DNA of 64,000 bases from an uncultured Clostridia bacterium (GTDB taxonomy: Bacteria; Bacillota; Clostridia; Christensenellales; Aristaeellaceae), in contig CAMVFE010000001.1 in NCBI GenBank assembly GCA_947166705.1, positions 62,001-126,000 on the forward strand, read 5' to 3'. A model generated the notes under the pieces. The model was not told where the DNA came from and searched no databases. It saw nothing but the letters and a program-made list of their open reading frames with translations. Of this stretch, positions 9,688 through 58,103 are shown one piece after another. The translations under genes and the position numbers were made by a program. Each line of letters begins with the position of its first letter. Positions within the stretch are counted from its first letter, which is position 1.

Positions 9688-9714
9688 CAAAAAAGCCGGG
9701 CCGAAAAGCCCGGC
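9688..9714 (-). terminator. Rho-independent terminator
   Basis: Reverse strand GCCGGGC-TTTTCG-GCCCGGC followed by TTTTTT, downstream of the 9733-10113 CDS. Confidence 0.75.
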
Positions 9715-9732
9715 GGATCCCCATACCGCTCA

Positions 9733-10113
9733 TTATTCTCCGTTCCGGTCCTTTCCGGCCCCTTCCGGGCCGGTTTTTTCCTGTTCCCGGCGCCGCTGGA
9801 CCGCGACGGCCTGGGCCGTCTCCTCTGCCTGCCGCTGCAGGACGGAAATCCGCTGGTCCATCAGGAACAGCTTGATGATCATCAGGAAGATGACGATCAG
9901 GAAAACCAGGTTCGCGGCGCTCATCACGCCGATCAGGTCCGCCAGCCGGGTCACCAGGTCCGGCAGCGCGCCCATCAGCACCAGGATCAGGCTGAACGCC
10001 AGCCAGAACACGGAATCCTCCGTCCGCATCCGGCTCTTCCGCACCCTGCGGAGCACATAACCCGCGGTCAACAGCGATCCCGCGATCAGCAGGATCCGCA
10101 TCATCGTGGACAT
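9733..10113 (-). CDS. DUF2304-like small membrane protein
   Basis: 126 aa, 3 TMs; FWLAFSLILVLMGALPDLVTRLADLIGV...NLVFLIVIFLMI; adjacent to GT2, a typical DUF2304 context. Confidence 0.75.
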   Translation of the reverse strand: MSTMMRILLIAGSLLTAGYVLRRVRKSRMRTEDSVFWLAFSLILVLMGALPDLVTRLADLIGVMSAANLVFLIVIFLMIIKLFLMDQRISVLQRQAEETAQAVAVQRRREQEKTGPEGAGKDRNGE

Positions 10114-10114
10114 C

Positions 10115-10810
10115 TTACAGCTTCTCCTTCCGGATCACCCACTGCAGAAAGAAGATGTTCATCCCCATCTGCGCCATATACCGCAGGGAACGCCCCAGAC
10201 TCAGGTAGCTTTCCCCGGCCTGCCGCTCCCGGATGGACACCGGGCATTCCCCGGTTTTCGCGCCGCACCGGATCAGAAAGGCGATCGTATCCGGCTCCGG
10301 CCGCGCCGACGGGGAGGCCGCCATGTACGTCATCACCCGCCGCCCGTACAGCCGCATGCCGCAGGTCGGATCCGTGACGCGCTTCCCGCAGGTCAGCCGC
10401 AGCGCGCCCTCGATCAGCGCGTTCCCCGCCATCCGCAGGCTCCGGGGCCGTCTTTTTGTCAGGAAGCGGGAGCCCATCACCAGGTCCAGCCCTTCCCGCT
10501 CCATCATCTCCGCCATGGGCCGGATGAAGTCCGGATCGTGCTGCCCGTCCGCGTCCAGCTGCAGCGCCGCGTCATATCCCTCTTCCAGCGCGTATTTCAT
10601 GCCCGTCCGGAACGCGCCCGTCAGCCCCAGGTTGGTGGGCAGGTCCAGCAGCGGCCAGCCGTTCTCCCGGCAGAGCTCCGCCGTCCGGTCCTGGGATCCG
10701 TCGTTCACGACGACGAAGTCCGCCTCCGGCGCCTTTTCCCGCAGTTCCCGCACCGTTCCGGGCAGGCTGGCCTCCTCGTTGTACGCGGGAATCACCACCA
10801 GCAGCCTCAT
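10115..10810 (-). CDS. Glycosyltransferase family 2
   Basis: MRLLVVIPAYNEEASLPG...VVNDGSQDRT...LDADGQHDP. Confidence 0.9.
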   Translation of the reverse strand: MRLLVVIPAYNEEASLPGTVRELREKAPEADFVVVNDGSQDRTAELCRENGWPLLDLPTNLGLTGAFRTGMKYALEEGYDAALQLDADGQHDPDFIRPMAEMMEREGLDLVMGSRFLTKRRPRSLRMAGNALIEGALRLTCGKRVTDPTCGMRLYGRRVMTYMAASPSARPEPDTIAFLIRCGAKTGECPVSIRERQAGESYLSLGRSLRYMAQMGMNIFFLQWVIRKEKL

Positions 10811-22792: not shown

Positions 22793-24620
22793 ATCGAGTA
22801 GGGAGAGTTTAATCTCCCTCTCACACCACCGGACGTGCCGTTCGGCATCCGGCGGTTCGGTTCAATTTCAAAGCATGTTGGTTCATGTAGTAATCAAGGC
22901 AACTGACCAGGCCTCGCTTGGTCAGTATTTCTTTTGAGACCGCCCGGCTCAAGCAAGATTTTGTTGCCACGAGGATGTAACAATTACCCCAGTATGCTGT
23001 TTTGCTTGCGAGCCATTCCGGTATGCCGAGTTTCTGCAATCCCCATTTCCGTTTAGATGGTACTTTCCACTGTTTCCAGATAATCATCCGCATCATTGTC
23101 CGCAAATGTTCGTCAGTAGTTTGCATGGTTTTCTTCATATCACCCATAGCAAAGTAATTGATCCATCCGCGGATAACCTCATTAAGCTTCTTGAGCCGGT
23201 AATCCATGTCTACGCTCCAGCTTCTGCAGCACAGTTTCTTCAACTTCCGCTTGAATTTCGCCACGGATTTCTGGTGTGGTCTTGCTCTCCATGTCCCCTC
23301 TTTGTCCTTCCAGAACCCAAAGCCGAGATATTTCAGATTCGTTGGTTTCGTGATGCAGGTTTTCTCCGCATTGACCTTTAATCCCAGCTTGCGTTCTATC
23401 CAGTCGGTAATGGAGTACATGACCCTCTTGGCCGCCGCACTGCTGCCCACCACGATTACACAATCGTCTGCATATCGGGTAAACTTCAGCCCTCTGGCCT
23501 CAAGTTCTTTATCCAGCTCATTCAGCATAATGTTGCTAAGTAACGGTGACAGATTACCTCCTTGCGGCGTTCCGGTCAGCGTTTCCTCATACTTCCCCTT
23601 GACCATGACCCCGGCTTGCAGATACTTCCGTATCAGTGACTCCGTGTCTCCATCATGGATCGTACGATTAATGATACTCATCAGTCTGTCCTGTGGTACG
23701 GTGTCAAAGAACTTCTCCAGATCGATATCAACAATCCATATGCTTCCTTCGTTGAAATACTCCAACAGTTTCACAATGGCTTGTTCGCAACTCTTGCCAG
23801 GCCTGAAGCCGTAGCTGTTCTCGCTGAATTGTTTTTCAAATATCGGCGAGAGTGTCTGCGCTATTGCCTGCTGGACCGTTCTGTCCACCACAGTCGGAAT
23901 TCCGAGTTTTCTGACGCCGCCGTTTTCCTTCGGGATTTCCACCCGTTCTACTGGTTGTGGTTTGTACCGTCTTTCCCGGATCGCCTGCTCAATTTCCTTC
24001 CAGTGGTCAGACATATACAGATTCAGTTCTTCGACTTCCATGCCATCTACTCCGGATGCCCCCTTATTGGCGCATACGCGTTTCATGGCTCTCTGTATGT
24101 TCTCCCAGTCCAGAATCCTGTCCAGCAGGCTTCCCATGCTTCCGTCTCCTTCCTTTCCGCTCCTAACTGCATCGCCCTATGTGTGCCGCTTCGCCTCATA
24201 TACGTTTCGGTTACCCGGCCTGTCGGGCTTGCTGTTGGGACATGCATTCATTTGACGTCTTGAACCGTTCGGCCCTTCACCTTTCGGCTACTATGGCCTC
24301 TGCTGACTTCTCGCAATTCGTTGTTACTACGGTTAATGAAACCGCTTGCGAGATCTCACGGGATAAGTCCCGAACCTTTCCTCGTTTACCCGTCCGATTT
24401 ACGCAACAGGGTTACGGTTGCCTTTTGGACTTCACTGCGTTTTGCCAGCTCATCCGCCTGTTACGCCTTGGTATCGGCTTCCTGTTCGTCGGGCCACGAT
24501 TTCGCTATGGCTTCTTCTCCCCTGCGCCTCACGACGCAGACCTTGCCAGTCACTATCGGGTTCGTCGGCAGCTACGCCCCTTGGGACTTCCACCCAAGCT
24601 TCGGGACATGCCCGTCATAC
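22793..24620 (-). mobile_element. Group II intron (bacterial class C-like), approx. 1.83 kb
   Basis: Putative 5' end GTATGACGGGC immediately after a terminator stem at 24621-24662; RT ORF inside; 3' region has a domain V-like hairpin (CCGCCGGATGCCGAACGGCACGTCCGGTGG) and domain VI-like stem (GGGAGATTAAACTCTCCC) ending CTACTCGAT; boundaries approximate. Confidence 0.8.
22821..24137 (-). CDS. ltrA: Group II intron reverse transcriptase/maturase
   Basis: KRVCANKGASGVDGM, IPKENGGVRKLGIPTVVDRTVQQAIAQ, YGFRPGKSCEQA, GTPQGGNLSPLLSNIMLNELD, RYADDCVIVV, then maturase X domain. Confidence 0.96.
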   Translation of the reverse strand: MGSLLDRILDWENIQRAMKRVCANKGASGVDGMEVEELNLYMSDHWKEIEQAIRERRYKPQPVERVEIPKENGGVRKLGIPTVVDRTVQQAIAQTLSPIFEKQFSENSYGFRPGKSCEQAIVKLLEYFNEGSIWIVDIDLEKFFDTVPQDRLMSIINRTIHDGDTESLIRKYLQAGVMVKGKYEETLTGTPQGGNLSPLLSNIMLNELDKELEARGLKFTRYADDCVIVVGSSAAAKRVMYSITDWIERKLGLKVNAEKTCITKPTNLKYLGFGFWKDKEGTWRARPHQKSVAKFKRKLKKLCCRSWSVDMDYRLKKLNEVIRGWINYFAMGDMKKTMQTTDEHLRTMMRMIIWKQWKVPSKRKWGLQKLGIPEWLASKTAYWGNCYILVATKSCLSRAVSKEILTKRGLVSCLDYYMNQHALKLNRTAGCRTARPVV

Positions 24621-42878: not shown

Positions 42879-43029
42879 TTTCTTTTCCCTCTCCCGGGAT
42901 TCATTGCTGCTGTGCTTCTGAGACATGTCAGATTCTGATGAAGTGACCATTTATGCGATTTATTCCAAAGTCGGAGCACAATATCTGCCGTTGGCTTCGG
43001 AACAGGAACAAATCAGAACCATTCTGAGT

Positions 43030-43091
43030 CAAGACAAAAGAACCGTCCCCGTGTCTTCAAGAACCGTCCCCGTGTCTTCCCCCGTGTCTTC
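43030..43091. repeat. Tandem/degenerate copies of the AAGAACCGTCCCCGTGTCTT repeat
   Basis: caagacaaaagaaccgtccccgtgtctt, caagaaccgtccccgtgtcttc and a partial ccccgtgtcttc; same family as 22591-22647. Confidence 0.92.
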
Positions 43092-43112
43092 TCTCCGCAG
43101 AGTCCCCGGTTC

Positions 43113-45338
43113 TCAGCGGATCAGCCCCTCGTAGGCGCTGACGATCTGCTCCCGCAGGTCCTGCCAGTCCCGGCCGCGGACGGTCTCCAGTCCGCCCTTG
43201 TACAGCCTTTCCCGCAGCTCCGCGTCCTCCGTGATCCTCCGGATGGCTTCCACCGCCGCCCCAACGTCCCCCGCCGGGTACAGCAGGCAGTTCTCCCCGT
43301 CCCGCAGGTATTCGGCGTTCCCGCCGTTGGGAACCACGACGCAGGCTCCGCCCGTCGCCATCATCTCCAGCGGCGGGTAGGAGAAGCTCTCCAGCAGGCT
43401 GGACTTCAGCAGGATGTCGCACTCCCCGTAGACCTCCGGCGTCCTGTCGTAGGGCACGGCGTGCAGGAACTGATCCACCCGGTAGGTTTCCTTCGGCTCC
43501 GCGTTGTAGGACATGTACCGGATCTCGTATTTCTCCGGGTCCAGCATCCCGGCGATCCGGAAGCTCTCGTCCACGTTCTTGTAGTCCACCGCGCAGTCGC
43601 CCTCGATCAGGATCCGGATCTTCCGCCCGGCCCAGTCCCGCCTCCGGGGCGTGTATTTCTCCGTCTCCAGCCCGTTCCGCAGGAGGATCGGCCGCTGTCC
43701 GTAGCGCTCCCGCAGCCAGCCCTCGCACCAGGGGGAGATCGTCAGGTACTTCCATTCCTTCGGCAGGAAGTAGCTCGCCTCGCTCCCCAGCCGCTGCGGG
43801 TCGCCGCAGGGATAGAAATCCCGCTCATAGTTCTGCACCAGGTAGGCCCGGGTTCCGACCCGCGGATAGCCGCGGATGAAATCCACCGTGGTCCACATGG
43901 TGGCGACCATCAGGTCGTAGTAAGCGTTGAACTCGCAACCGCCGTCGGCGTAGGAAAGGCACTGGAAGCTGTGCCCGAATTCCTTCCACACGTGCCATTT
44001 CGCGGTGGTCGAAATCAGGTCCACGTTCCATCCCGCGTCCTGCAGGAAGCACGCGTGCCGCAGCGCCACCATGATGCCCCCGCTCAGCTCGCAGGAGGGC
44101 AGCACGAAGGCTGCGTGCGGCTTCCGGATCTTCTCGTAAATCTCCCGGACCCGCGCCGTATTCTCCGTGGTCACGCAGTGCGCCCGGCAGTACCGGTACG
44201 CGTTCTCCGCGATCCTGTCCCGCAGCTCCGTCTCCCGGACCGCCCGGCTCAGAACCTCGTACCATTCCCCGTCCGCGGCCGTCAGCCCGGTCTCCCCGTC
44301 CCGGATCATCTCCTCGAAGGCGCCGGTCCGGCTGGCGGCGGTTGGCACCTTCACCAGCGCGGCTTCGACCCATTTGTTCTCGGACTTGGCCCGGTTGAAC
44401 ACCGTGTCCTCCACCGGCGCCAGGTTCAGGTCCACCCCCGCGATGATTTCCGGCAGCCCCTCCCATTCCGTGAAGGGCTTCCGGATGATACGGCCCTCGT
44501 AGGGCTTCAGCTCCTCCGGCAGGTCCAGCATCCCCATCAGCAGCAGCCGGACCTCCGGGTTTTCATCCATCACCCGGGTCACCGCCGGGCGGATCAGCTC
44601 GAAATCGGCGTTGTGCGTCACGGATCCGCTGAAGTAGCCCAGGATGACTTCCTTCCCCGCCGCGCGCCGCACCCGCTTCTCCTCCGCCGCCTTCCGCCAG
44701 GCGTCCTCGCTCAGCTGCACCATCCTTTCGGAGGCGCAGTTCCGGTTCACGTACACCGGGCTCAGGATCTTCTCCATCTCCCGGCGCATGCCCTCCGTCG
44801 TGGTCGTGGCCGCCTCGCACATCCGCAGCGTGGCGCCGTAGCGCTCGACGCCCTCGTCGTACAGGGCCCGCTCCTCCCGGCTGAAGGCCTTCACGGCCGG
44901 GATCGACTCCGTGTATTTCGTGTCGATCACCAGGTCGTCGATGTCGAAGGCCACCCGCTTTCCGACGCTCTTCGCCAGCCGGATCGCCTCCCCGGTCTTC
45001 TCCGTGTACGGGCAGCGGAAGAACACGATGGTGCTTCCCGCCAGCACGTCCTCCGGCCGGCAGGCTTCCGCGGAAATCTCCGCGGCGGTATACCCCGCCG
45101 CGCGCAGCTGCTCGATCTGGTGCGTCACCCGGTACCGGGGCGGATGCGGGGCCTGCTCCGGCGGGCAGCCGTTCACGAACAGCACGTCGTAAAGCACACG
45201 CTCCGGCCGGCTGTATTCATGGTGCTCCCGTTCATATTTCCGGATGAACCGCGTCCGAGCCTCCCGGAAGGTGCCCTTCAGCCCCGCCTCGTCCCACGAC
45301 CGCAGGAAAAGGTAGCTCCATCTCAGCGCTCTTCCCAT
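43113..45338 (-). CDS. Large two-domain glycosyltransferase (GT4/GT-B-type)
   Basis: 741 aa; two GT-B-like segments (RKPFTEWEGLPEIIAGVDLNLAPVEDTVFNRAKSENKWVEAALVKVPTAAS and YGECDILLKSSLLESFSYPPLEMMATGGACVVVPNGGNAEYL). Confidence 0.87.
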   Translation of the reverse strand: MGRALRWSYLFLRSWDEAGLKGTFREARTRFIRKYEREHHEYSRPERVLYDVLFVNGCPPEQAPHPPRYRVTHQIEQLRAAGYTAAEISAEACRPEDVLAGSTIVFFRCPYTEKTGEAIRLAKSVGKRVAFDIDDLVIDTKYTESIPAVKAFSREERALYDEGVERYGATLRMCEAATTTTEGMRREMEKILSPVYVNRNCASERMVQLSEDAWRKAAEEKRVRRAAGKEVILGYFSGSVTHNADFELIRPAVTRVMDENPEVRLLLMGMLDLPEELKPYEGRIIRKPFTEWEGLPEIIAGVDLNLAPVEDTVFNRAKSENKWVEAALVKVPTAASRTGAFEEMIRDGETGLTAADGEWYEVLSRAVRETELRDRIAENAYRYCRAHCVTTENTARVREIYEKIRKPHAAFVLPSCELSGGIMVALRHACFLQDAGWNVDLISTTAKWHVWKEFGHSFQCLSYADGGCEFNAYYDLMVATMWTTVDFIRGYPRVGTRAYLVQNYERDFYPCGDPQRLGSEASYFLPKEWKYLTISPWCEGWLRERYGQRPILLRNGLETEKYTPRRRDWAGRKIRILIEGDCAVDYKNVDESFRIAGMLDPEKYEIRYMSYNAEPKETYRVDQFLHAVPYDRTPEVYGECDILLKSSLLESFSYPPLEMMATGGACVVVPNGGNAEYLRDGENCLLYPAGDVGAAVEAIRRITEDAELRERLYKGGLETVRGRDWQDLREQIVSAYEGLIR

Positions 45339-45389
45339 CTTTTTCCCTTTCTCTTTCCGTTCTCTCCGCGGCTTCCGTCTTCCTTTCCG

Positions 45390-47105
45390 TCAGCCGGGCG
45401 TATTCTCCTCTGCCTCCGTCAGAAGCCTCCCCTGCCGGAGCCTCCAGTGCTTTTCGCAGATGCCGTCCGCCGCCGGCCGGTGGCTGACGAGGATCACCGT
45501 CCTGTCCCGCAGGCCGGCGATGTTCCGCAGCATGGCCGCCTCCGTCTCCGCGTCCAGCGCGGAGGTGGCCTCGTCCAGCAGCAGGATGGGCGCGCCGCTC
45601 AGGATGGCCCGCGCCGCCGCGACGCGCTGCGCCTGGCCCTCCGAAAGCCCGATGCCGTGCTCACCCAGCACGGCGTCCAGCCCGATCTCGTCCGCCAGCT
45701 CCTCGATGCACGCCGCCCTCAGGGCCGCGCGCACCGCCTCCGGCGGGGCGTCCCCGGCGAAAAGCAGCAGGTTCTCCCGCAGCGTCCCAGAAAACAGCGT
45801 GTTCCCCTGGGGAACGTAGGCGAAGAGCCTCCGGATCCCCCGGGACGCGGGAACCTCCCGGCCCCCGCCCTCGAAAACGATGCGTCCGGACGTCGGCTTC
45901 CAGATCCCGAGCAGCAGCTGGAAAAGGCTGGTTTTTCCCTCCCCGGACGCTCCCCGCAGCGAAATGGAATCCCCCTTCCGGATCTCGCCGCAGGCGTCCC
46001 GCAGCACGTCCTCAGTCCCGTCTCCGTACCGGAAGCTCACGTGGTCCAGCCGGATGCGCTCAAAGTCCGCGAGGGTCCCCAGGTTCTCGTCCTCCGGCAG
46101 GCTCAGGAACTCCTGCAGCCGCTCCGCGGACGACGTCGCCGCGTAGACCCGCGCCATCAGGTTCGCCGCGCCCGCGACCGGATTCTGCAGCCTGCTCACC
46201 AGCGGAATCAGCGCTGCCAGGCTTCCGTAGCTGAATTCGCCCCGGAAGATTTTGACGCAGCCCCACAGGTAGCAGAACAGCCAGGAAAAATCCAGCACGC
46301 TTCCGACACCGCTGCGCATGAAAACGGCCAGCATCCCGTTCCGCTTCCGGGCCTCCGCCAGCTCCTCCGCGCGCTTCCCCACGCGTTCCATCGCCCGCGC
46401 CTCCGCCGCGCCGGCCTTCAGCACGCGGATGTTTCCGACCGTCTCCTGCGCCGCGGCGTGCATCGCGTCCTCCGCCCGCTGCATGCGGCGGTGCCGCGCG
46501 CGCACCGGTCCCCGGAACATGCGCGTGAACGCCGTCCACGCCGCGGAGCCCAGCAGCAGCGCGGGCACGAACCGCCAGTCCATCGTGATCAGGATCGCCG
46601 CCGCCCCGATGAAGGATACGCCCGTCCGGACCAGGGACGGCAGGACCTCCGTCACCCCGTCCCGCACCTCGGTGGCGTCGGAAAAGATCCGGTTCACCAG
46701 CTCCCCGCTGTGGTAGCCCTGCAGCGCCGCCCAGTCCCGCGTCAGCAGCCCCTGCACCGCGTTCCGCTGGATCTCCTTCTGCAGGTCCGCGGAAGCCCGG
46801 TTCTGCATGTGCCCGCTGAGAAAGGAAAACACCCGCTCCAGCACGATCGCCGCCGCCAGCAGGCATCCGAAGCGGATCATCGGCTCCCGTGCCCCGGCCG
46901 CGGCGCTGTCCACCAGCTCCCGGGTGATCAGCGGTATGCCCAGCGCGGTCAGCACGAAGAGAATATTGAGCAGGATCATCAGCCGCACGGTGCCCCGCAC
47001 CGGCCGGCACCAGCCCCGGATCAGCGAAAGCGGGGAAAAGCGGAAAACCTTTTTCAGCTTTTCCAGATCGGATACCTGCCTGTCCGTTTCCCTGCCGTCC
47101 CTCAT
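45390..47105 (-). CDS. ABC exporter (fused TMD-NBD), last transport gene of RiPP operon
   Basis: 6-TM domain plus GASGEGKTSLFQLLLGIW, LSEGQAQRVAAARAILSGAPILLLDEATSALD. Confidence 0.93.
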   Translation of the reverse strand: MRDGRETDRQVSDLEKLKKVFRFSPLSLIRGWCRPVRGTVRLMILLNILFVLTALGIPLITRELVDSAAAGAREPMIRFGCLLAAAIVLERVFSFLSGHMQNRASADLQKEIQRNAVQGLLTRDWAALQGYHSGELVNRIFSDATEVRDGVTEVLPSLVRTGVSFIGAAAILITMDWRFVPALLLGSAAWTAFTRMFRGPVRARHRRMQRAEDAMHAAAQETVGNIRVLKAGAAEARAMERVGKRAEELAEARKRNGMLAVFMRSGVGSVLDFSWLFCYLWGCVKIFRGEFSYGSLAALIPLVSRLQNPVAGAANLMARVYAATSSAERLQEFLSLPEDENLGTLADFERIRLDHVSFRYGDGTEDVLRDACGEIRKGDSISLRGASGEGKTSLFQLLLGIWKPTSGRIVFEGGGREVPASRGIRRLFAYVPQGNTLFSGTLRENLLLFAGDAPPEAVRAALRAACIEELADEIGLDAVLGEHGIGLSEGQAQRVAAARAILSGAPILLLDEATSALDAETEAAMLRNIAGLRDRTVILVSHRPAADGICEKHWRLRQGRLLTEAEENTPG

Positions 47106-47175
47106 GCCGCGTCCTCCCGCCGTGCCGTCCGAATTCCGTCTCCCCGTGCCGTCCGCGGGGCGCCCGCAGGCGGTC

Positions 47176-48327
47176 CTACCGCGCCGGCGGATCCTGCTTC
47201 CCCCGTTCCGGCAGCAGGCCCAGCACGGCCTTCATCTCCGCCGCCGCCTTTCCCCTCCGGCGGGAAAACACCCCGCGCGCCAGGCGCGCCGCGCAGTACG
47301 CCGGATACAGGAACGGCGCCCTGCGCAGGGAGGGAAAGGCCTCGGTCATGTAGCTGTAGGGGGGAACGAGCCGCGCCAGGAAATAGCGGAGCCGGCCCCG
47401 CTGCGCCACCTTTTTCCGGATGCCCTCCTCCATTTCGCCGTAGGCCCCGGCGTCGGCGATCCGCCCGAACATCTCCCGCTGCGCCGCGGTCAGCTCCCGC
47501 CCGGAGAAAAGCGCCTCCGCCAGTTCCCGGTTCGTCCGCTCGAAATCCGCGATCCCCATCTTTTGCGCTTCCCGGGCGATGTAGGCCATGTCCGGCCGGC
47601 AGCTCCGCAGGAAAACGTAGATATCCAGCAGGGACCGCAGCCCCGTCCCGTTCTCGGAATAGTGCTTGTATTCATGGGCGGTCATGTAGAGGTAGAAATC
47701 CTCGTCCGAAAAATGGTATCCGAACCCGTTCCCCTCGTCCTTGATGAGCCGGTCCTTCACATGCTCGTAGTACGCCGCCACCCCGGATCCGCGGATTCCG
47801 GAAAACACCGTCTCCGAAAACAGCTTCCGGTGCATCTCGAAATTGCTGACCGGCGGCCGCATGTAGACGTCGTGGGCGTCCGCGCCGTAATGCTCCTGCG
47901 TGAAGCCCAGCTCCAGCATGATCCGCCGGACGTCCTTCGCCCGCGCCGCGTCGAACAGGATGTCGTTGTCCGCCATCTCCCGGAGCCCGAAGCCGGGATA
48001 CCGCTCCTTCATCACCGCTCCCTTGAGCGGCATGTACCAGATGCCGGCATCCTCCAGCGCCGCGAGCACCCGCGCCCGGTCCCGGTCCAGCAGCAGGATC
48101 CGCCGCTGGGCCTGGGCGATCGCCCGGTGAAACCTTTCGTCGCGGATTCCCGCGGCCTCCAGGGCGGTCCCCGCCGCGGATGCCAGGGAGTGGCGCGCGG
48201 CGGCTTCATAAACCCGGCCCAGGTCCATCCGGGAAACCAGCTCCCCGGGCGGCGCCTCGCCCCTCACGGCGCAGGAAGCCAGCAGCGCCGCCTGCTCCGC
48301 CGGCGTCCCGTAAGCTCTTTCCATCAT
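47176..48327 (-). CDS. NTP_transf_5-like nucleotidyltransferase family protein
   Basis: ALEDAGIWYMPLKGAVMKERYPGFGLREMADNDILFDAARAKDVRRIMLELGF, EMHRKLFSE; frequent companion of Clostridial PqqD/HprK/rSAM RiPP loci. Confidence 0.8.
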   Translation of the reverse strand: MMERAYGTPAEQAALLASCAVRGEAPPGELVSRMDLGRVYEAAARHSLASAAGTALEAAGIRDERFHRAIAQAQRRILLLDRDRARVLAALEDAGIWYMPLKGAVMKERYPGFGLREMADNDILFDAARAKDVRRIMLELGFTQEHYGADAHDVYMRPPVSNFEMHRKLFSETVFSGIRGSGVAAYYEHVKDRLIKDEGNGFGYHFSDEDFYLYMTAHEYKHYSENGTGLRSLLDIYVFLRSCRPDMAYIAREAQKMGIADFERTNRELAEALFSGRELTAAQREMFGRIADAGAYGEMEEGIRKKVAQRGRLRYFLARLVPPYSYMTEAFPSLRRAPFLYPAYCAARLARGVFSRRRGKAAAEMKAVLGLLPERGKQDPPAR

Positions 48328-48773
48328 GCCTCTCTCTTCCGCCGGAACCGCCGGATCCGCCGCAGCAGCCCCCGCGCCCGCAGCGCGATCACCCGCGCCG
48401 GGTACCCGGCGCCCCAGATCCGCGCGTAAATCCGGTATTTCCGGTCCTTCACCGATATCGTCTTCCCGTCCCGGATGACCGCCGTCAGCACGCCGATCAT
48501 CTGCCGCGGCGGAACGCCCTTCTCCCGCCGCCACCGGTTGTCCCCGCACATCACGTACCCGTCCGGCCGGATCTTCAGGATCCGGTGCAGCACGTATTCC
48601 CCGCTGTCCCGCCGGTACAGCGGCACGTCGTATTTCCTCAGCGGCTCCCGGATGGGCTCGATGACCACCAGGTCCCGGCCCTCCCGGATCAGGGGAAGCA
48701 TGCTGTCCCCCCGGTTCGTGTAAACCAGCCGGCCGTCCCGCTCCAGGATCTCGCGAAAGTCCATCTTACTCAT
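48324..48773 (-). CDS. S24/S26-like signal peptidase-fold protein
   Basis: TNRGDSMLPLIREGRDLVVIEP (Ser motif), YDVPLYRRDSGEYVLHRILKIRPDGYVMCGDNRW (LHRI and GDN motifs). Confidence 0.8.
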   Translation of the reverse strand: MSKMDFREILERDGRLVYTNRGDSMLPLIREGRDLVVIEPIREPLRKYDVPLYRRDSGEYVLHRILKIRPDGYVMCGDNRWRREKGVPPRQMIGVLTAVIRDGKTISVKDRKYRIYARIWGAGYPARVIALRARGLLRRIRRFRRKREA

Positions 48774-51201
48774 CCGCAGGCCCCGCCTCTTCCCCCGTCC
48801 CGTGAATCCGCCAGACCTGCGCCGCCCAGCCGGCCTTCCGGGCATATCCGATCCGCAGCTGGGCAAGGCTTTCCTCCCCGGCCGTGTCGGCGTACCAGGT
48901 TCCCAGCTTCTCAAAGCCCTCCACGGATGCGTCCTCGCAGACCAGCAGGCGGACCAGCAGGCTGTCGCAAAGGTTTTCGCTGCACAGGAAGGCGCAGTAC
49001 CGCCCCTTCTCCCGCAGCAGGACGGCGGCCAGGCCGTCGTTTTCCCGCCTCTCGTCCCGGATCCTTTTTCCGTTCTCCCAGACGCAGAGGCGGCTGAACG
49101 CGCGGGTCTCTCCCTTCAGGGTGTATTCCGCTTCGATGTGCCCGTACTCCCCTTCCCGGATCCGGACGGTATATCTCCCGTCCGTCATCGGGATCAAGGC
49201 CTCCCCGTTCTCCGCCGCGGCGGACGCGGACGAGCTCAGCGTGAAAGCGCGCTCCTCCTGCGCCCTCGTCTCCGGGTTCCAGAAGCCGAAATATCCCAGG
49301 GAGGTGTATCGCTGCAGGATGTCCGTGCTCAGCACCAGCGCCGCCGGATCCGGATCAACAGGATGGGTTTCGTCCAGCACCGCCGCCGGCGCCCCCTCCT
49401 CCCGGAAAACCGCCCCCGCTTCGTCCCGGGAAAGCGGCAGGATCCGGAGCAGCAGGCCGGCGGCCCGCGCCTGGTCCATCCCCGCCTCCGTCAGCCGGTC
49501 CAGCGCGTCGGTCCCGCTCTCGCCCAGCATGCGGAAAATGCCGGCCGCCAGCCTCGGGTCCTCGGCCAGCAGCGCCTTCGCCAGAAACCAGCTCCGCGCC
49601 CCGCTGTCGCTTCCGCCGTCCCCAAGGGTCCGGCGGTCTCCCCGGTACTGCAGGTAATATCCGTCGTCCCACCAGGACGCGGCCACGGTGTTCTCCGGCG
49701 TGTGCTCCCGGACCCACCCGAGGGCCTCCGCCTTGCTGTCGTTGATCAGGGTGGAGGGCGCAGAGCTCCGGAGGTTCTTTACGCCCGTCCGGCACGCGGG
49801 AAGGGCGGCGGCCAGCGCCAGCGCCGCGCACAGCGCCCGGGCGGCCGTTCTCCGGCGTCCCTGCGCCCGGCCCGCGAGCCGGTACAGTTCCCCCACCGTC
49901 AGCCCGCACAGCAGGCAGACGGGCAGCGCCGTGATCTCCGCGAAGCGCACCGCCCGCAGCCCGAGCAGGATCCCGGCCGTCAGCCACAGGCTGAAATAAA
50001 CCGTCTCCGTCCGGGCATACGCGGCCTCCCGCCTAAGGGTCTCGTCCTCCGCCCCGCGCCGGGTCGCGGCGGCCCGCGCCCAGCTGAGCGGGAACCAGTA
50101 GACCGCCAGTGCGAAGGGAATCAGCCCGCCCGCACGGCCGAGCAGCGAATCCGTGCCCGGCAGGATCAGCTTCCGCAGCCCGCCCTTCGGCAGGAAGGGC
50201 AAAGGCTGCATCTCCGCAATATGCTCCAGGGCGTACGGCATGGCGTCTGCGCTTCCGGCCGCCGCGCGAAACGCGGCCGGCGCGCGCAAAAGCTCCGCAA
50301 GCCCTTCCCGCCCGCGCACCAGCAACAGCGCCGCCGCGGGCAGCAGCAGCCCCGGCAGCGCACGCCGGAGGATCAGCCGGATCCGCCGGGACGGCGCCAG
50401 GCCCGGAAAAGCGCGGGAAAAAAGCAGCAAAGCGGCGCTGATCGCCAGCGCCGCCTCGGAAAGCAGCAGGTATCCGGAATGCGCGCGCCAGAAAAGCCCC
50501 GTCGCGGCAAAGGCGGCGGCGCTCAGCAGGGCGCAGGCCAGCCTCCGCCCGCGGCCCGGCTCGCACAGGCTCGCCATCTGCGCCGTCACGGCCGCCGTCG
50601 GCAGCACGGCCAGCGCCATGTCCGTATCAAAAAAGCCCGCCTGCGTATGCTGCACGAAGGGAATCGCCCCGGCCGCCAGCAGCGCCGCCGTGAGCCCGCC
50701 CGCGAGCGAGGTCCTTCTCCGCGTATAAAAATACGCGGGTAGCACTGCGAGGCTCCCGATCACGGGGCCCATCCAAGCAGCGGTCCGCGTCAGGGAAACG
50801 CCGAAGGGGGAAAGCAGCCGCCACAGCGCCCACGCGAGCACGGAAAGGCCCAGCGGCTGTACAGCGCCGTCCTTCCCGCCGCCCGTGCGCGCGCCGATCA
50901 GGGGATCATCCTCCCGGTTCTGGGTCCAGGCCGCGCCTCCCCCCTCCGCCATCTCCCGCGCCTTGCGCAGGTAGTAGTACGAATCGTTCTCCGTCAGATA
51001 GGGCTCCCCGTCCTCATCCTGGAAAAAAGAAAAAACCCGGGGTTCCTCCGCCGGGAGCAGGTATGCGGAGGCCCGGATCAAAAAGGCCGCGCAAAATACA
51101 ACTGCCAGCAGAATCCCCGGAAGCAGTTTCCTGAAAGCGTATTTCCGGCGCGGTTTTCCCTCCGCCCCGTTTTTCGTCTCCAAGTCTTTCCCGTCCTTCA
51201 T
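48766..51201 (-). CDS. STT3/PglB/AglB-type oligosaccharyltransferase (GT66-like)
   Basis: ENDSYYYLRKAREM (first-loop acidic motif), AGFFDTDMA (DxD), signature AASWWDDGYYLQYRGDRRTLGDGGS (WWDxGY), polytopic N-terminus with soluble C-terminus, 811 aa. Confidence 0.93.
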   Translation of the reverse strand: MKDGKDLETKNGAEGKPRRKYAFRKLLPGILLAVVFCAAFLIRASAYLLPAEEPRVFSFFQDEDGEPYLTENDSYYYLRKAREMAEGGGAAWTQNREDDPLIGARTGGGKDGAVQPLGLSVLAWALWRLLSPFGVSLTRTAAWMGPVIGSLAVLPAYFYTRRRTSLAGGLTAALLAAGAIPFVQHTQAGFFDTDMALAVLPTAAVTAQMASLCEPGRGRRLACALLSAAAFAATGLFWRAHSGYLLLSEAALAISAALLLFSRAFPGLAPSRRIRLILRRALPGLLLPAAALLLVRGREGLAELLRAPAAFRAAAGSADAMPYALEHIAEMQPLPFLPKGGLRKLILPGTDSLLGRAGGLIPFALAVYWFPLSWARAAATRRGAEDETLRREAAYARTETVYFSLWLTAGILLGLRAVRFAEITALPVCLLCGLTVGELYRLAGRAQGRRRTAARALCAALALAAALPACRTGVKNLRSSAPSTLINDSKAEALGWVREHTPENTVAASWWDDGYYLQYRGDRRTLGDGGSDSGARSWFLAKALLAEDPRLAAGIFRMLGESGTDALDRLTEAGMDQARAAGLLLRILPLSRDEAGAVFREEGAPAAVLDETHPVDPDPAALVLSTDILQRYTSLGYFGFWNPETRAQEERAFTLSSSASAAAENGEALIPMTDGRYTVRIREGEYGHIEAEYTLKGETRAFSRLCVWENGKRIRDERRENDGLAAVLLREKGRYCAFLCSENLCDSLLVRLLVCEDASVEGFEKLGTWYADTAGEESLAQLRIGYARKAGWAAQVWRIHGTGEEAGPADE

Positions 51202-51222
51202 CTCCGCCGCGGGCCGGATTGC

Positions 51223-51348
51223 TCAGCAGCTGACGTTCATGTTCGAGGAGCCGTACTTGGAGGTGCAGTCCTCTCCCGAGGTCAGGATCGCGTCGTCCTC
51301 GAGCTCGATGACTTCCATTTCGGGCTTTTCGTAAGCGGTCTTTTCCAT
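51223..51348 (-). CDS. RiPP-type precursor peptide (41 aa) with NVS sequon and two Cys in core
   Basis: RBS GGGAGGAACCACC then MEKTAYEKPEMEVIELEDDAILTSGEDCTSKYGSSNMNVSC; sits between pqqD-like/rSAM and STT3; the 61-aa ORF in the track starts too far upstream. Confidence 0.85.
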   Translation of the reverse strand: MEKTAYEKPEMEVIELEDDAILTSGEDCTSKYGSSNMNVSC

Positions 51349-51404
51349 GGTGGTTCCTCCCGGATAGTCTCTTCCGCGCGGGCCGGATTCCGGCCCGTTC
51401 GCTG

Positions 51405-51665
51405 TCATTCCTCCAGCGCGCCGATTCCGCGCAGAGTATTCAGGATATTCGACACGTCCCGGGCAATCTCCTCCCTCGGCGCGTCGTATTTTTGGAATAA
51501 TTCCTCCACGATCCGCTCCTCCGTGGTTTCCTCCTTCAGCCGGTCCACGATGAAGGCGGCCGCGGCGTTGCTGCGGACGATGCCCTTGAAGGCCTCCCGT
51601 CCCAGCGGCACCAGGAACTGAACGCCGTCCAGCTCCTGGGTCATAAAATTCTCTTTAAGCTTCAT
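51405..51665 (-). CDS. PqqD-like RiPP recognition element protein
   Basis: 86 aa MKLKENFMTQELDGVQFLVPLGREAFKGIVRSNAAAAFIVDRLKEETTEERIVEELFQKYDAPREEIARDVSNILNTLRGIGALEE; typical PqqD fold pattern. Confidence 0.9.
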   Translation of the reverse strand: MKLKENFMTQELDGVQFLVPLGREAFKGIVRSNAAAAFIVDRLKEETTEERIVEELFQKYDAPREEIARDVSNILNTLRGIGALEE

Positions 51666-51679
51666 CTTCCGTCCCTCCT

Positions 51680-53026
51680 TCAGCAGTCCGCGTCCGGAAC
51701 TTCTTCCTCCGCCGCCGGTGCTTTTCCTTCCAGATATTCCGCCGTCCTGATCTGAAAACGAAGCATGCGGATTTCCCGGCATCCGGCGTCCTGCACCGGG
51801 CAGGACGCGAAGGGCGTGCATTCCGGCAGGAACGGGCATTTCCGGCATTTCTCCCGGACGCTGTCCGTCCCGCGGATGCGTTCCTCCTTTTCCGGATCCG
51901 CGCTTCCGTCCGTCAGGTTCCCGTAGCGCATTTCCTCCGAGCAGTGCTCGCACGCGTACAGGCTGCCGTCCGGCCCGATCACGACGCTTCCCATGTCCGC
52001 CATGCAGTGGCGGTTCCTGAAATCGTACAGGGTGAAGCGAGAATCCCGCGCCCGGAAGCCGAAGGAGCGGATCAGCGGCCGCGATTCCGCGATCTTCCGC
52101 CACAGCGCCGGGCTGCCCCCGCTTTCCCGTACGGCGTTCAGCCCGCTCAGGTAAACGTCCACGTTCGATTTGTCCGGCACCGCCTCCGCCAGGTCGGAAA
52201 GGAAGGCGCCGACCCCGCCGATGTTCTCCTCGTCCACATTGCTCCGGACGGAAACCTTCACGCCCCGCTCCGCCAGCATCCGGACGGCGCTGAGCACCCG
52301 GCGATAATGCCCCTTCCCGGCGGGATACCTTTTGCGGGCGGCGTAGTCCGCTTCGTCCCCGTCCATGGAAACCTGCGCGTGCCGGATCTGCCAGGGCCCC
52401 GCCATCCGGTCCGCGGTTTTCTCCGTGATCAGGCTGCCGTTCGTGGTGATGTTGCCCTGGAAGGGAATGCCGGCCTCCCGGACGCGCTCCGTGATGAAAT
52501 CGATCACCGCCGGCGCGGCCAGCGGTTCTCCGCCGAACCAGTTCAGGACGATCTCCCCGGGGCGGCGCGTCCGGATGATATACTCCGCCGTCTTCTCCGC
52601 GGTCTCCTGCGTCATGGTCGTCTGCGGCCGGCCCTCCTCGAAGCAGTAGACGCAGCGCGCGTTGCACGCGGTGGTCGGAAGGATGGTGTACCCCGCGATC
52701 CCCTTCCGCCGGACCATCGCGTGCATGATCCGGAAAACGCCCATGTAGAACGCGCATTCGTCCTTCCCCTCCGGGACAAGGTAATACGCGCGGATCAGCT
52801 CCTCCAGCTCCCCGTTCCCCGCGGCCTCCTCCGCCGTGACGCGCTCCGGCAGCCTGCCCTCCGGCTCTGCCAGCTGCCTGGTCAGGGTATGGAACCACAG
52901 CCGCCTGCCTTCATGCTCGAAGGGCAGCGCGAACTGCGACCGGACGTAGGCGCCGTCCCGCCGCACCGCCTGCGGCGGCAGGATTTTCCGCAGCGCGGGA
53001 TCTGCCCTGCGGCATTCCTTCAGCAT
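51680..53026 (-). CDS. Radical SAM/SPASM peptide maturase
   Basis: ILPTTACNARCVYCFEEG (CxxxCxxC), NWFGGEPL, SPASM-like Cys cluster CEHCSEEMRYGNL...CRKCPFLPECTPFASCPVQDAGC. Confidence 0.95.
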   Translation of the reverse strand: MLKECRRADPALRKILPPQAVRRDGAYVRSQFALPFEHEGRRLWFHTLTRQLAEPEGRLPERVTAEEAAGNGELEELIRAYYLVPEGKDECAFYMGVFRIMHAMVRRKGIAGYTILPTTACNARCVYCFEEGRPQTTMTQETAEKTAEYIIRTRRPGEIVLNWFGGEPLAAPAVIDFITERVREAGIPFQGNITTNGSLITEKTADRMAGPWQIRHAQVSMDGDEADYAARKRYPAGKGHYRRVLSAVRMLAERGVKVSVRSNVDEENIGGVGAFLSDLAEAVPDKSNVDVYLSGLNAVRESGGSPALWRKIAESRPLIRSFGFRARDSRFTLYDFRNRHCMADMGSVVIGPDGSLYACEHCSEEMRYGNLTDGSADPEKEERIRGTDSVREKCRKCPFLPECTPFASCPVQDAGCREIRMLRFQIRTAEYLEGKAPAAEEEVPDADC

Positions 53027-53754
53027 CCGAATACCCCCCTGTACGCGGTCTTCGCCGCCTCCGGCGACATATTGCATTCCAGCCCGTAAAAGGCCGCCCT
53101 GTCCAGCATTTCCTGCCGAAGTGCCATCGTCCTTTTCGCCTCCTCCGGATCCTCCGGCATCCAGGAATGCTTCGCCATCAGCAGGAACGCCTCGTCCCGG
53201 GTCAGCGGGGCAATCCGGTTCCCCTCGCTCCGCCGCACCCGGATCACCGCCTTCAGCGGGGCACTGACGTTCCTGCTCAGCCGGTGCTTCCCGTCCCAGG
53301 GCGATCCGTGGACCATGACCCGATCCTCCGAAAGCCTCAGCAGAGGCTTGTCGTCGTTGATCATCCACACCCGGTCTCCGAAGGCCTCCCGCCAGAGGCG
53401 GGCCTGGGTGCTCTTCCCGGTCCCGCTCGGCGCGGTGAATATGACCGCTTCCCCGTCCATGCACAGGGCGGAGCCGTGAAGCAGCAGCACGCCGAAAGGC
53501 AGCAGCGCCTGGACGATCAGCCGGTGCAGGGCATTGTTTTCGAGGTAGCTGTCCGCCACGCGCTCGTATCGGAAGCCCTGTCTTTCGGCCATCCGGTCCA
53601 TCTCGAGGCGCGTCCGACGCAGGTCATCCTCCGAGGGCTCCACCGCCGCTTTCGGCTCCCTGTCCGTCAGATAGTTCGCCAGGAAGTCCCGGTTCTCTTC
53701 AAACCTGCATTTCACCTGAACCGGCACCCCGGCCAGCTCCGCCGTGAAGGTCAT
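53020..53754 (-). CDS. HPr kinase (HprK)-like P-loop protein of RiPP locus
   Basis: LLLHGSALCMDGEAVIFTAPSGTGKSTQARLWREAFGDRVWMINDDKPLLRL (Walker A and INDDKP motif). Confidence 0.88.
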   Translation of the reverse strand: MTFTAELAGVPVQVKCRFEENRDFLANYLTDREPKAAVEPSEDDLRRTRLEMDRMAERQGFRYERVADSYLENNALHRLIVQALLPFGVLLLHGSALCMDGEAVIFTAPSGTGKSTQARLWREAFGDRVWMINDDKPLLRLSEDRVMVHGSPWDGKHRLSRNVSAPLKAVIRVRRSEGNRIAPLTRDEAFLLMAKHSWMPEDPEEAKRTMALRQEMLDRAAFYGLECNMSPEAAKTAYRGVFGC

Positions 53755-53907
53755 ATCCGTTTGTCCCCTACTTTTTATTTATTCAGGCCATCCGCTTGCA
53801 AATCGGAATCCAGCTTTTATACAGCAGCTTGATCAGATCGCCCAAAGTGAAAGCACTACAACCTATTCCCGGATCACATTATTATGCGTCAGCCGGTTGC
53901 CCCGCTG

Positions 53908-54129
53908 TCACCGGCTGAATGCTTCATAATAAAAATGTAGGAACCTACACGAGGGGCTTGAAAAAACAAGTTGGTTCTGCTTGAACAGTACTTCTCCAGC
54001 CCGGAGTTTATCGCCAGAATTGTCAAAGCATTCAATGACATCCAGTCTGTCCAATACCTGCTGCAGCGTGTAGTCCATAAAGAGATTGTTGTCCTGCATC
54101 TGTTTCTTAATGTAGGAAATCTTTAACAT
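53908..54129 (-). pseudogene. C-terminal fragment of an IS1634-like transposase
   Basis: SYIKKQMQDNNLFMDYTLQQVLDRLDVIECFDNSGDKLRAGEVLFKQNQLVF resembles transposase C-termini; no N-terminal part present. Confidence 0.45.
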
Positions 54130-54195
54130 CTAACACTTTTAGAACAGTCCTGCTTGGTCTCTATTTCTAGAAAACCAAGCCCCAAATGTAATGCA

Positions 54196-55538
54196 CTATT
54201 TTGCTGCGTTAGAGACATCTGACAAGTATTGATCTTGAATAATTTGGTATTTGTTTTTGTAAAATTCTTCGGCAGCATTCCAATTTTTTCGTTCAAATTG
54301 TTCACCAGTTAGCTGTTCTGCGATTACCCAAGTGCTAAATTTATAGTCTCCTCTCCAATCTTTTGTCGATTTAAGATTAGTTTGTGTAAGGTTAGATACA
54401 ATCAATAACACACATAATATACACAGCAAAACCTTCACTATAGCCGCTCCTTTTTCAGTTTCAATGCATTTGAGCTTTTTGATAACACTGGAAAACAGAT
54501 CATAAAAACATAGCACAATGAAAGAGTAGAACGGGAGCAGAACTCTGGTGGCAATATAGCCTTTATGCATAATAAGTTGCATTAAAATATTCGTTGCAAT
54601 GAATATAACCAACATCATTGGCAAATCTTGTTTCGAAAAGTCTTTTCTCAAGAATAGTATGGCTACAGCGCCACAAATCAAGGCAAGAAGCGCAAGAATA
54701 AACGCCAGCGTGTTGTTATTAGTAAACATTCTTGTATAGCCTTCAACAACGCTACTAAAGAAGTTCTGTGCTCTACCTGTATAAAGTGGCTTTCCTTCAG
54801 AACTAATATTCATGTGAAACTTAACCATTAATAAAGTGAAAACAATGAAAAATAGGAAAAAGATACCACACTTTTTCAGTAAATGTTTAATCGTTTTTCT
54901 CTGAATTATGCGAAGCAAGCAGATTAATCCGACTGCCGGATATAGTAGAAGTACTATAGTATTAGAAAAAACTCCCATGCTCATATATACCATCAACCAA
55001 TTTAAATGCTTCATCTCAAAATAATCAGAGTCGATCCACTTTTTATATGCAAGGAATGCAAAAAAACGCAAGTGTTCGCCATACCATAACCACGTGCAAG
55101 GCCATAAAACTCCAGAAGATAGTAATTGCTTACAAGAAAGAATAATGTAGTTAGTGAAAATTGTTTCCTTTTGTATCCATAACCAACGCCAATGAGATAG
55201 AGAACGAAAAAAACTAATGATGGCAGCCTGATTAGAAACTCATTGTAATCAACTCCTGTGATCAAATGGCAAAGATTAATCAGCATGGAGTTTAGCCAAT
55301 GGTTATTTGCTATACAACCTGCTTTACTATACAAATGCCGCAATGTGTTATAGTTGAACAAATCAATTCTGCCAAAATTCATATAAGTATATGCCTCGTC
55401 ATAAGTGATGCCTGAGACAATACTCCTGATAAGCACGATCGCAAATAGTAAAAGAAAATAACCAAAAAGCAACCAAAACAAAAGGCGAATTGCCTTATTG
55501 TCTATCCACTTTCTGTTTGTTTCCTGAACATTCATCAT
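54196..55538 (-). pseudogene. Low-GC GT39-like multi-TM glycosyltransferase gene, frameshifted
   Basis: N-terminal half (55011-55538) and C-terminal half (54196-55071) lie in different frames, overlapping at a T7 homopolymer; SGITYDEAYTYMNFG...NNHWLNSMLINLCHLITG...GLARGYGMAN is typical of GT39-like proteins. Confidence 0.75.
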
Positions 55539-55590
55539 ACCTCACCTCATGTTGACATGGGGGAGTACTTTATACCGAGTGGGGGCAAAA

Positions 55591-55785
55591 TCACCTTACC
55601 ACCCACACCCCGTTCTCATCCGTAAAAAACGGAAGCTCCGGGGAATCGGCGGCCGGAAAGCAGTATGTAGCGGCCCGGATCCCAAAGCCTGCGCAGAACA
55701 CCGCCGCCAGCAGGATTCCCGGAAGCATGATCTTCGAAAGGAAACGCCGAAGCGAAGCCCTCTCCCTTTTTTCCATCGCGATCAA
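55591..55785 (-). pseudogene. N-terminal remnant of a second STT3-like gene
   Basis: LRRFLSKIMLPGILLAAVFCAGFGIRAATYCFPAADSPELPFFTDENG aligns with FRKLLPGILLAVVFCAAFLIRASAYLLPAEEPRVFSFFQDEDG of the full-length STT3, then stops. Confidence 0.85.
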
Positions 55786-55833
55786 AGCCTTTCCGCCCTT
55801 TATTCCTTTACGGCATCGGCAGGCTGAGGAACG

Positions 55834-55962
55834 TCATATGGCAGCACCGCCGATACTGTTCGGATCCAGATCAGCTGTCATAATCAGGACCGCATCGTCC
55901 CCGATTTCTATCCCTTCTATCTCCAGCTTTTCATAAGCCATCTTCTCCAAGGGATATCCCAT
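55834..55962 (-). CDS. Second RiPP-type precursor homologue (42 aa; possibly decaying)
   Basis: Reverse-strand reading MGYPLEKMAYEKLEIEGIEIGDDAVLIMTADLDPNSIGGAAI; leader aligns with MEKTAYEKPEMEVIELEDDAILTSG; absent from ORF track because under 60 aa. Confidence 0.75.
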   Translation of the reverse strand: MGYPLEKMAYEKLEIEGIEIGDDAVLIMTADLDPNSIGGAAI

Positions 55963-55976
55963 ATAGACAATCACTG

Positions 55977-58103
55977 TCAGTTTACTGTCTCAATGGTCTG
56001 GGTCTGCTTTAAGGATTCAGAAGGGTCTGTTTCTTCCAGGTACATGGCCGTCATATAAAAACTCAATAACCTTTTATCTCCACTTTCTCCTAATTCCCTT
56101 GGGGAAACAGCATCCGGAATTTCAATCCTTAATTTGAGTTTTCCATTCACAATTGTTCCTTTGGGGATGATAAATTCGAATGTCTTAGGATTGTTTATTT
56201 CTGAATCCATTACTAAGATATTGTTTGCATATGCTCTGACCGTTTGATGATCGTTATAAATTCTATTATAATCAAAGTGAACCTTTAGATCTTTTTCGAT
56301 TTCCTTGTTGAATTTGAAAGAGGCAACCGCTTCGTGTCCCGTCATCCATGTTGCGTTTTCTTCACTTAGGCCCAGGCCTAAATTCCAGTATTGCCTTGCA
56401 GTACCGTCTCCTATAAATGATAGTTTGTCTCCCAAAGTATAATCCCTGTATTCTGAGGCTACGAAATGGAAATTTGATTCTTTATTCCCTTCTGAATCAA
56501 CACTGTATTCAGTCAAAGTCGGAAGATAATCACCCAAAGCACCATCCCATATATAGTAAAAATACTGCCGCTGTCTTTCATCTTTCTCTGGAATGTCAAA
56601 AACAGATTCGCCAAATCGATGGTCCAGATTCAATCCAATTTCTTCCATCACTGTTGCTTGTAAATCTCCATGGCAAACAGGCGCATCCGATACTTTAAGC
56701 TTACCCCGGCTGCCCACAGGCTTAATAAGCAAAACAGGATTGGTAAATAATTCATCAGTACGGCCATGATCTGCAGTAATTATTATCAAGGAATTATCGT
56801 ATACACCTAGTTTCGTCAACTGTGCCATATATTCATAAACAATTGCTAAACATGCTTTCGATTCTGAAATGCAATCAGCACTTCCATCTGTCACCGTTTC
56901 AAGGTTTTCATTAAGCGTAAACGGAGGATGTGGCCCATTTAAGTGGATTACACTATATCTGTTTCCATCCTTTTGAATTTTCAGCGGATTCGATCGGAGC
57001 CAATTATAATACCAGGCATTATCATCGCTGAACAATTCTTTGTTATCGAAAGAACCGCTCTTTTTCCATTTGTTGAATTCATCACTGTAAAGCCAGACAA
57101 ACCTTTTCAACGCATCAGGGAAAAACCTGAAAGCAGCAAATTGATAAAGAGTCTTTGTCAATCCTGCGTAAGAGGAAACAATGGGTCTCGACTCAGAATA
57201 ATTGCAAATCAACCGGTTGCCTTTATCCGTCTCAACAAATAAGGGATCTGTATAGATTCCTATTGAATAACCATTTTCTGAAAGCAAATCATAATAATCC
57301 GTTTTTTTGAACGCTTCTCTAATATACTCTCTTAATGGCATCTCATTTCTGTTTATCTGTCCGGTTAGCATGTATGGTAATGATCCCGCGGTAGTCGGAT
57401 ACATACAGGTAACATTGCGAAAATAAACAAACCCATCCAACGGCTCAATGTATCTTTCATCATTCTGGTTTATTTCATCAAAATAATCCTGATCGAATGT
57501 ATCCAGAACAAAAACTATCACATTACGGTTTTCGGATATTTCATCCAGTCCTTCTGTAGTCAGAGTTTTCTTAATTCCTGCTGTACCTTGCCCGCCGTTA
57601 TTGACAATGAGCATAATCATAACAGCCGACAACTGAATTGCCAGCAGTAAATAAGACCCATACTGGATACATTTCCTGCCAATATTTGGCTTGATAAACA
57701 TTATTACAACTGGAAGTGCCAATATTGCTAACCATAATGCAGCATCCTTTATCTCTCTCCCCAAGTATTGACTCCAGTCAATCATCCGGCCATCTAAAAC
57801 ACCATAATCAGCATTGATAAAATTACCTTGGACATAAAGACATAGTGAAAGGCCAAACAGAGTGCACATAAAAAACTCCCGGCCCTTTTGTGGAATTAGC
57901 ACGCCAACGACAGAGAGAATTACGAATGATAAAAACGCACACAAGATGCAGGGAAGAACAATATCCGTCAGTGAAAACCATAATTCACTTTGATTGGTCA
58001 AGTATACAATCAACGGACAACATATTCCCGCTGTTACAGCCAGTAACGCTGCCGTTGGAAAAATTGTTTTCAGTGCTGTTTTGTAATCCTTCATAATGGT
58101 CAT
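55977..58103 (-). CDS. Multi-TM sulfatase/LTA synthase-like alkaline phosphatase superfamily protein
   Basis: 5-6 N-terminal TMs, NVIVFVLDTFDQDYFDEI, MYPTTAGSLPYMLTG, IHLNGPHPPFT, SLIIITADHGRTDE. Confidence 0.85.
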   Translation of the reverse strand: MTIMKDYKTALKTIFPTAALLAVTAGICCPLIVYLTNQSELWFSLTDIVLPCILCAFLSFVILSVVGVLIPQKGREFFMCTLFGLSLCLYVQGNFINADYGVLDGRMIDWSQYLGREIKDAALWLAILALPVVIMFIKPNIGRKCIQYGSYLLLAIQLSAVMIMLIVNNGGQGTAGIKKTLTTEGLDEISENRNVIVFVLDTFDQDYFDEINQNDERYIEPLDGFVYFRNVTCMYPTTAGSLPYMLTGQINRNEMPLREYIREAFKKTDYYDLLSENGYSIGIYTDPLFVETDKGNRLICNYSESRPIVSSYAGLTKTLYQFAAFRFFPDALKRFVWLYSDEFNKWKKSGSFDNKELFSDDNAWYYNWLRSNPLKIQKDGNRYSVIHLNGPHPPFTLNENLETVTDGSADCISESKACLAIVYEYMAQLTKLGVYDNSLIIITADHGRTDELFTNPVLLIKPVGSRGKLKVSDAPVCHGDLQATVMEEIGLNLDHRFGESVFDIPEKDERQRQYFYYIWDGALGDYLPTLTEYSVDSEGNKESNFHFVASEYRDYTLGDKLSFIGDGTARQYWNLGLGLSEENATWMTGHEAVASFKFNKEIEKDLKVHFDYNRIYNDHQTVRAYANNILVMDSEINNPKTFEFIIPKGTIVNGKLKLRIEIPDAVSPRELGESGDKRLLSFYMTAMYLEETDPSESLKQTQTIETVN

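Follow-up and report, generated by a model that had tools for sequence, protein, structure and literature searches.

The window, by which we mean the whole 64,000-nucleotide stretch of DNA analysed here, comes from a gut/rumen bacterium and contains a small modified-peptide operon with its own STT3-type oligosaccharyltransferase (OST). The genes lie on the minus strand in the order HprK-like kinase, radical SAM (rSAM)/SPASM enzyme, PqqD-like protein, precursor peptide, STT3, S24/S26 peptidase, NTP_transf_5 protein and ABC transporter, and several of them overlap or are at most about 70 bp apart. The HPr-kinase-like protein (53020–53754), a possible precursor kinase, was matched weakly by TIGR04352 (HprK-related kinase A; 0.0011), and its gene adjoins the rSAM gene in G156, L017, L022, L067, L069, L070 and other loci. 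The rSAM/SPASM peptide maturase (51680–53026; PF04055, 3.2e-15) has TIGR04463 and PapB NF047865 as its nearest NCBIfam models, but both scores are far below cut-off (for the PapB model, 101.6 bits where 340 are required), and the PqqD-like protein (51405–51665; PF05402, 1.7e-13) is a probable RiPP recognition element (RRE). On the other side of the precursor and STT3 genes are an S24/S26, signal-peptidase-like protease (48324–48773; TIGR02228, 5.5e-4, and PF00717, 0.0042, both weak), which is a candidate leader peptidase, an NTP_transf_5 nucleotidyltransferase-like protein (47176–48327; PF14907, 6.3e-39), and an ABC transporter with permease and ATPase domains (45390–47105; PF00664, 2.6e-28; PF00005, 1.6e-21). 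The best NCBIfam models for the transporter are MsbA-like, and either a peptide exporter or a lipid-linked-sugar flippase is a candidate role for it. A group-1 glycosyltransferase gene (43113–45338, minus strand; PF00534, 2.5e-24) adjoins the operon. An Rfam search of positions 43000–56500 gave no matches. Elsewhere, the window is rich in genes for glycosyltransferases, surface polysaccharides and LRR secreted proteins, and an open reading frame at 22821–24137 (minus strand) resembles, by eye, a group II intron reverse transcriptase.

The precursor gene (51223–51348, minus strand) encodes a peptide of 41 amino acids. Translation from 51348 to 51223 yielded MEKTAYEKPEMEVIELEDDAILTSGEDCTSKYGSSNMNVSC, identical to an earlier reading, which divides into the leader MEKTAYEKPEMEVIELEDDAILTSG and the core EDCTSKYGSSNMNVSC; a good ribosome-binding site, GGGAGGAA, sits before the ATG. 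The leader is of the KPxMEV type, and Tyr-x-Lys-Pro was invariant when it was aligned with 12 homologous leaders. With a short precursor, a conserved leader, a variable core, and an RRE and maturase in one operon, the locus fulfils the criteria for a RiPP. The 16-residue core contains two Cys residues and an NVS sequon, ends in N-V-S-C, and has no CX2D motif. A preliminary description of this DNA had placed NVS directly before the terminal Cys and a Cys at either end of the core; the translation bears out both statements, Cys28 and Cys41 being found near the two ends. It had also remarked that there is no acidic residue at position -2 from the sequon Asn, where we indeed read Asn, and had cautioned that a lone sequon in a short peptide might arise by chance. 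That caution was justified, for at least one sequon appeared in 51% of shuffles of the window core. Since the sequon of the window alone could be fortuitous, homologues were collected as evidence.

A search of its own genome, a 2.18-Mb MAG, showed the precursor to be present in a single intact copy. The second match (E=0.0019) was a decayed precursor at 55834–55974 (minus strand), which has a TTG start, reads EKMAYEKLEIEGIEIGDDAVLIMTADLDPNSIGGAAI, and contains neither Cys nor a sequon. Directly after it lies a remnant of a second STT3 (55591–55785, minus strand), comprising the first 64 amino acids with 45% identity to STT3 residues 1–65 (L002), and the segment from 55974 to 55591 is a decayed duplicate of the precursor-STT3 pair.

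The STT3 protein

The STT3-type OST (48766–51201, minus strand; 811 amino acids) begins 21 bp after the precursor stop codon. It matched PF02516 (2.2e-26; 93.8 bits against a cut-off of 24.5) and PF21436 (1.8e-8), both over cut-off, and aligned with the PglB structure 5ogl of the PDB with E=8.9e-11. We noted the motifs WWDDG, FFDTD and NDSYYY, and observed that WWDxG and the catalytic DxD are intact in all of the RiPP-linked STT3 proteins, in which the Tyr of WWDYG is Asp. The position of PglB Arg147, as read from a partial PDB alignment, is occupied by His, which is also found there in several non-RiPP Clostridia STT3s. An AlphaFold model of the protein, built from only four sequences, had a mean pLDDT of 46, a quality too low to support a fold search.

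The RiPP-linked STT3s grouped together as a single clade (91/91) beside the non-RiPP STT3s of Clostridia. The species that carry them belong to the window's family and to the Lachnospiraceae, and we infer from this distribution of sequences that the cluster has probably moved horizontally. By Pfam search, each of six genomes (G000, G156, G1045, G1046, G1047 and G1147) encodes exactly one STT3, which is the cluster-linked one, and no STT3 was detected in the other 20 of the 26 genomes, namely those with STT3-less loci, within the limits set by MAG incompleteness. No further RiPP-linked locus was found by STT3 searches of viral contigs, a class sample and the family of L021, or by an rSAM search of plasmids; the additional Lachnospiraceae STT3s that were found are of the non-RiPP kind.

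Sequons in homologous precursors

Fifteen loci in named genomes were retrieved with the rSAM protein as query, as were further loci from the family and order to which the window belongs, and STT3 searches contributed others; at each locus we read short open reading frames with a KPxMEV-type leader. The five genomes with both STT3 and precursor represent at least two families. Sequons were present in 7/7 of their precursors, in cores that are otherwise unalignable: NVS in the window, two NNT in G156, NGT in L014, NQT and NGS in L015, NHT in L021, and, in two tandem precursors on contig C59, NVT and NDT in one and NGS in the other. Contig C59 belongs to G1045, the genome of L014, in which STT3 lies on a different contig from these two precursors. 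For G156, the precursor is on L037 and STT3 on L004, contigs that are joined by an exact 87-bp overlap. The end of L004 had been read as INITDSISC, which proved to be out of frame, and joining to L037 gave SFSNNTH as the true tail.

The seven cores contain 10 sequons, compared with 4.1 expected from their composition; in shuffles, the probability of a total of at least 10 was 0.0024, and that of every core having one was 0.0027. Neither of 2 control motifs was enriched in these cores, the reversed [ST]xN occurring twice and NxxS/T three times. In contrast, where loci with this rSAM family lack STT3, a sequon was seen in the core in 3/18, these being L068 (NWS), L070 (NDT in three near-copies) and L071 (NYS). 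The association of sequon with STT3 by locus had a Fisher exact P of 0.0017, with no correction for kinship. Because the STT3-linked genomes number only five and include two close relatives, we regard these P values as modest. Kinship of the rSAM enzymes alone does not account for the pattern, since the STT3-linked rSAMs do not form one clade in the rSAM tree. In the same tree, L068, L070 and L071 branch basally in the large group without STT3, adjoining the STT3-linked members, and on the strength of that position we speculate that their sequons might have been left behind by an STT3 since lost.

The preliminary description had proposed a comparison of precursors adjacent to STT3 with precursors from loci without it, and had named a lack of sequon conservation next to STT3 as the refuting outcome; that outcome was not observed. 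Its suggestion that the sequon fits the acceptor rule of the neighbouring STT3 draws support from this retention, although glycosylation itself remains an inference, and its expectation of relaxed specificity at -2 agrees with the presence of D or E at that position in 0/10 sequons.

Layout, gain and loss of the locus

In all five loci the precursor lies to the 5' side of STT3, with 21, 52, 125 and 270 bp between the two genes in the window, L015, G156 and L021, respectively; in L014 they are separated by one glycosyltransferase gene, of the GT4 type. In STT3-less loci the precursor usually precedes the rSAM gene instead. Within one genus, four genomes (L013, L014, L015 and L107) share a common site between DNA polymerase III subunit-like and dynamin-like genes. 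L014 and L015 have rSAM, PqqD, precursor, STT3, ABC transporter and NTP_transf_5 genes there, whereas L013 has only rSAM, PqqD and NTP_transf_5, the precursor, STT3 and ABC genes being jointly absent. L107 (genome G1147) retains only the S24/S26 peptidase gene and an intact STT3 gene (7938–10847), having lost rSAM, PqqD and any recognisable precursor.

Core sequences and their flanks

Between L015 and the first C59 precursor, DNA identity was 90% over 128 bp that include the tail of PqqD and the leader, yet the cores could not be aligned, and a conserved hairpin follows. A comparison of NGSLCSVV with NVTLCSVV shows that Gly has changed to Val and Ser to Thr without loss of the sequon. The core is thus hypervariable between conserved flanks, yet its sequons persist. 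The hairpin to the 3' side of the precursor was seen in L138 (300–400), L015 (9900–9929) and L014 (9951–10009), and is possibly an attenuator between the precursor and the downstream genes. A gene for an HldE-like bifunctional heptose kinase/nucleotidyltransferase (L138, 755–2191; C59) lies to the 3' side of two sequon-bearing precursors of a Lachnospiraceae MAG. Together with the GT4 gene of L014, its location ties sugar metabolism to the precursor.

The CX2D motif occurs 14 times in the seven STT3-linked cores, compared with 3.7 expected, and neither CX3D nor CX4D occurs in them. The enrichment covers the cores of L014, L015, L021, L037 and L138, and CX2D is a likely rSAM target motif. PapB joins Cys to Asp in CX3D and also accepts different spacings (PMC9413430), and for this reason Cys-Asp thioethers are plausible at the CxxD motifs of the homologous cores, although the rSAM chemistry is unproved. 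For the window core, which lacks the motif, the crosslink is uncertain.

Interpretation and alternatives

Gene order, domains, conserved OST motifs, retention of sequons with STT3, and a sole OST per genome are the observations on which we base our reading. We consider it probable, in the absence of biochemical evidence, that the operon product is an N-glycosylated, rSAM-modified RiPP whose core is glycosylated by the cluster STT3. In the pathway that we envisage, the PqqD-like RRE would bind the KPxMEV leader and the rSAM/SPASM enzyme would modify the core, in most relatives probably by forming Cys-Asp (CxxD) thioethers. By analogy with PsmK and PsmN in pseudomycoidin, the HprK-like kinase and the NTP_transf_5 protein may add phosphate and further groups to the peptide. 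The S24/S26 protease would then cleave near I-x-T-S-G to release the leader, and export of the peptide would follow, perhaps through the ABC transporter. At the outer face of the membrane the cluster STT3 would transfer a lipid-linked sugar en bloc to the sequon Asn, a step that we infer from association and that, unlike transfer by Campylobacter PglB, would need no acidic residue at -2.

It could be argued that STT3 is a general OST for secreted proteins which happens to lie beside RiPP genes, the sequons being a product of cores rich in Asn, Ser and Thr. Non-RiPP STT3s of Clostridia do exist, some of them in glycan loci that include GT2 and flippase genes and lie beside large secreted proteins; the STT3 of G1147 (L107) persists without a visible precursor, an awkward case for our reading. 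Also, Asn is more abundant in the STT3-linked cores (6.9% versus 4.0%). However, the excess of sequons persists in composition-controlled shuffles (P=0.002), reversed and shifted motifs show no such excess, the precursor precedes STT3 in all five genomes, which represent at least two families and whose STT3s belong to one clade, and the pairing is repeated in the decayed second copy of the window. We therefore find a general OST an unlikely explanation, but one that deserves to be kept in mind. Less credible still is that the STT3 acts on some other product of the cluster or of neighbouring glycan genes, such as a receptor, immunity or surface protein; despite the abundance of glycosyltransferase, surface-polysaccharide and LRR-protein genes in the window, the surface neighbours differ among the five loci, and precursor, rSAM and PqqD are the constant partners of STT3. 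We give this possibility very little weight.

The tails of several cores (NVSC, NNTH, NHTL and NGSIMSC) raise the question of whether a C-terminal Ser/Thr-Cys is instead a target for phosphorylation or phospho-glycosylation by the HprK-like kinase and NTP_transf_5 protein, NX(S/T) being a by-product of a conserved hydroxyl. There is precedent in paeninodin and pseudomycoidin, in which a C-terminal Ser receives phosphate from the HprK-like kinase and hexosylation depends on PsmN (PMC9266682). But these 2 genes are equally present in STT3-less loci, where precursors lack the sequons and such tails, and thus they do not explain the sequon pattern; moreover, selection for a hydroxyl alone would not favour Asn at -2 from it, and it is the sequon, not Ser/Thr alone, that tracks STT3. 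We judge this explanation improbable.

Returning to N-glycosylation of the core, we hold it slightly more likely than not that these loci represent a RiPP class in which a glycan, lipid-linked and possibly containing heptose, is moved en bloc by a dedicated cluster STT3 onto an Asn sequon of a hypervariable, rSAM-crosslinked core, with sugar genes as exchangeable cassettes between precursor and STT3. To our knowledge, oligosaccharyltransferases are known for proteins and not as RiPP tailoring enzymes, and a search of 5.39 million papers, which did not extend to subscription papers, retrieved no description of an OST within a RiPP cluster or of an OST-tailored RiPP. If the reading is correct, it defines a RiPP modification, reveals a natural minimal acceptor for a bacterial OST without need of an acidic -2 residue, supplies short peptides for testing sequon recognition by STT3, and implies that Clostridia recruited an OST as a one-substrate enzyme.

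Relation to known systems

The window STT3 shares with PglB, AglB and STT3 the PF02516 and PF21436 domains, WWDxG, DxD and the NX(S/T) acceptor, but its gene sits in a RiPP operon alongside that for a short precursor peptide, and the protein has WWDDG in place of WWDYG and His at the Arg147 position. Campylobacter PglB requires an acidic residue at -2, which is absent from the ten sequons of the STT3-linked cores. Like the glycocins, the proposed product is a RiPP that bears sugar, but glycocin sugars come from a glycosyltransferase and a nucleotide sugar, whereas here the sugar would be attached to Asn by an OST. In glycocins the sugars are on Ser, Thr or Cys (PMC9266682). The lasso clusters of pseudomycoidin and paeninodin have in common with the window an HprK-like kinase, a nucleotidyltransferase-like protein and a PqqD-type RRE, and in pseudomycoidin the first two yield phospho- and hexosyl-peptides, PsmN being linked to hexosylation of phospho-Ser (PMC9266682). 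The window operon differs in having an rSAM enzyme and an OST, and no lasso cyclase or B2 protease domain was found in those of its open reading frames that were scanned. With the ranthipeptides (PapB) it shares a related rSAM/SPASM maturase, judged by the nearest models, and fixed-spacing Cys-Asp pairs in most homologous cores, although the spacing is CX2D and not CX3D. Non-RiPP STT3 genes of Clostridia were noted at L147, L148 and L029; those at L147 and L148 are accompanied by GT2 and flippase genes, a context that suggests general N-glycosylation in Gram-positive anaerobes.
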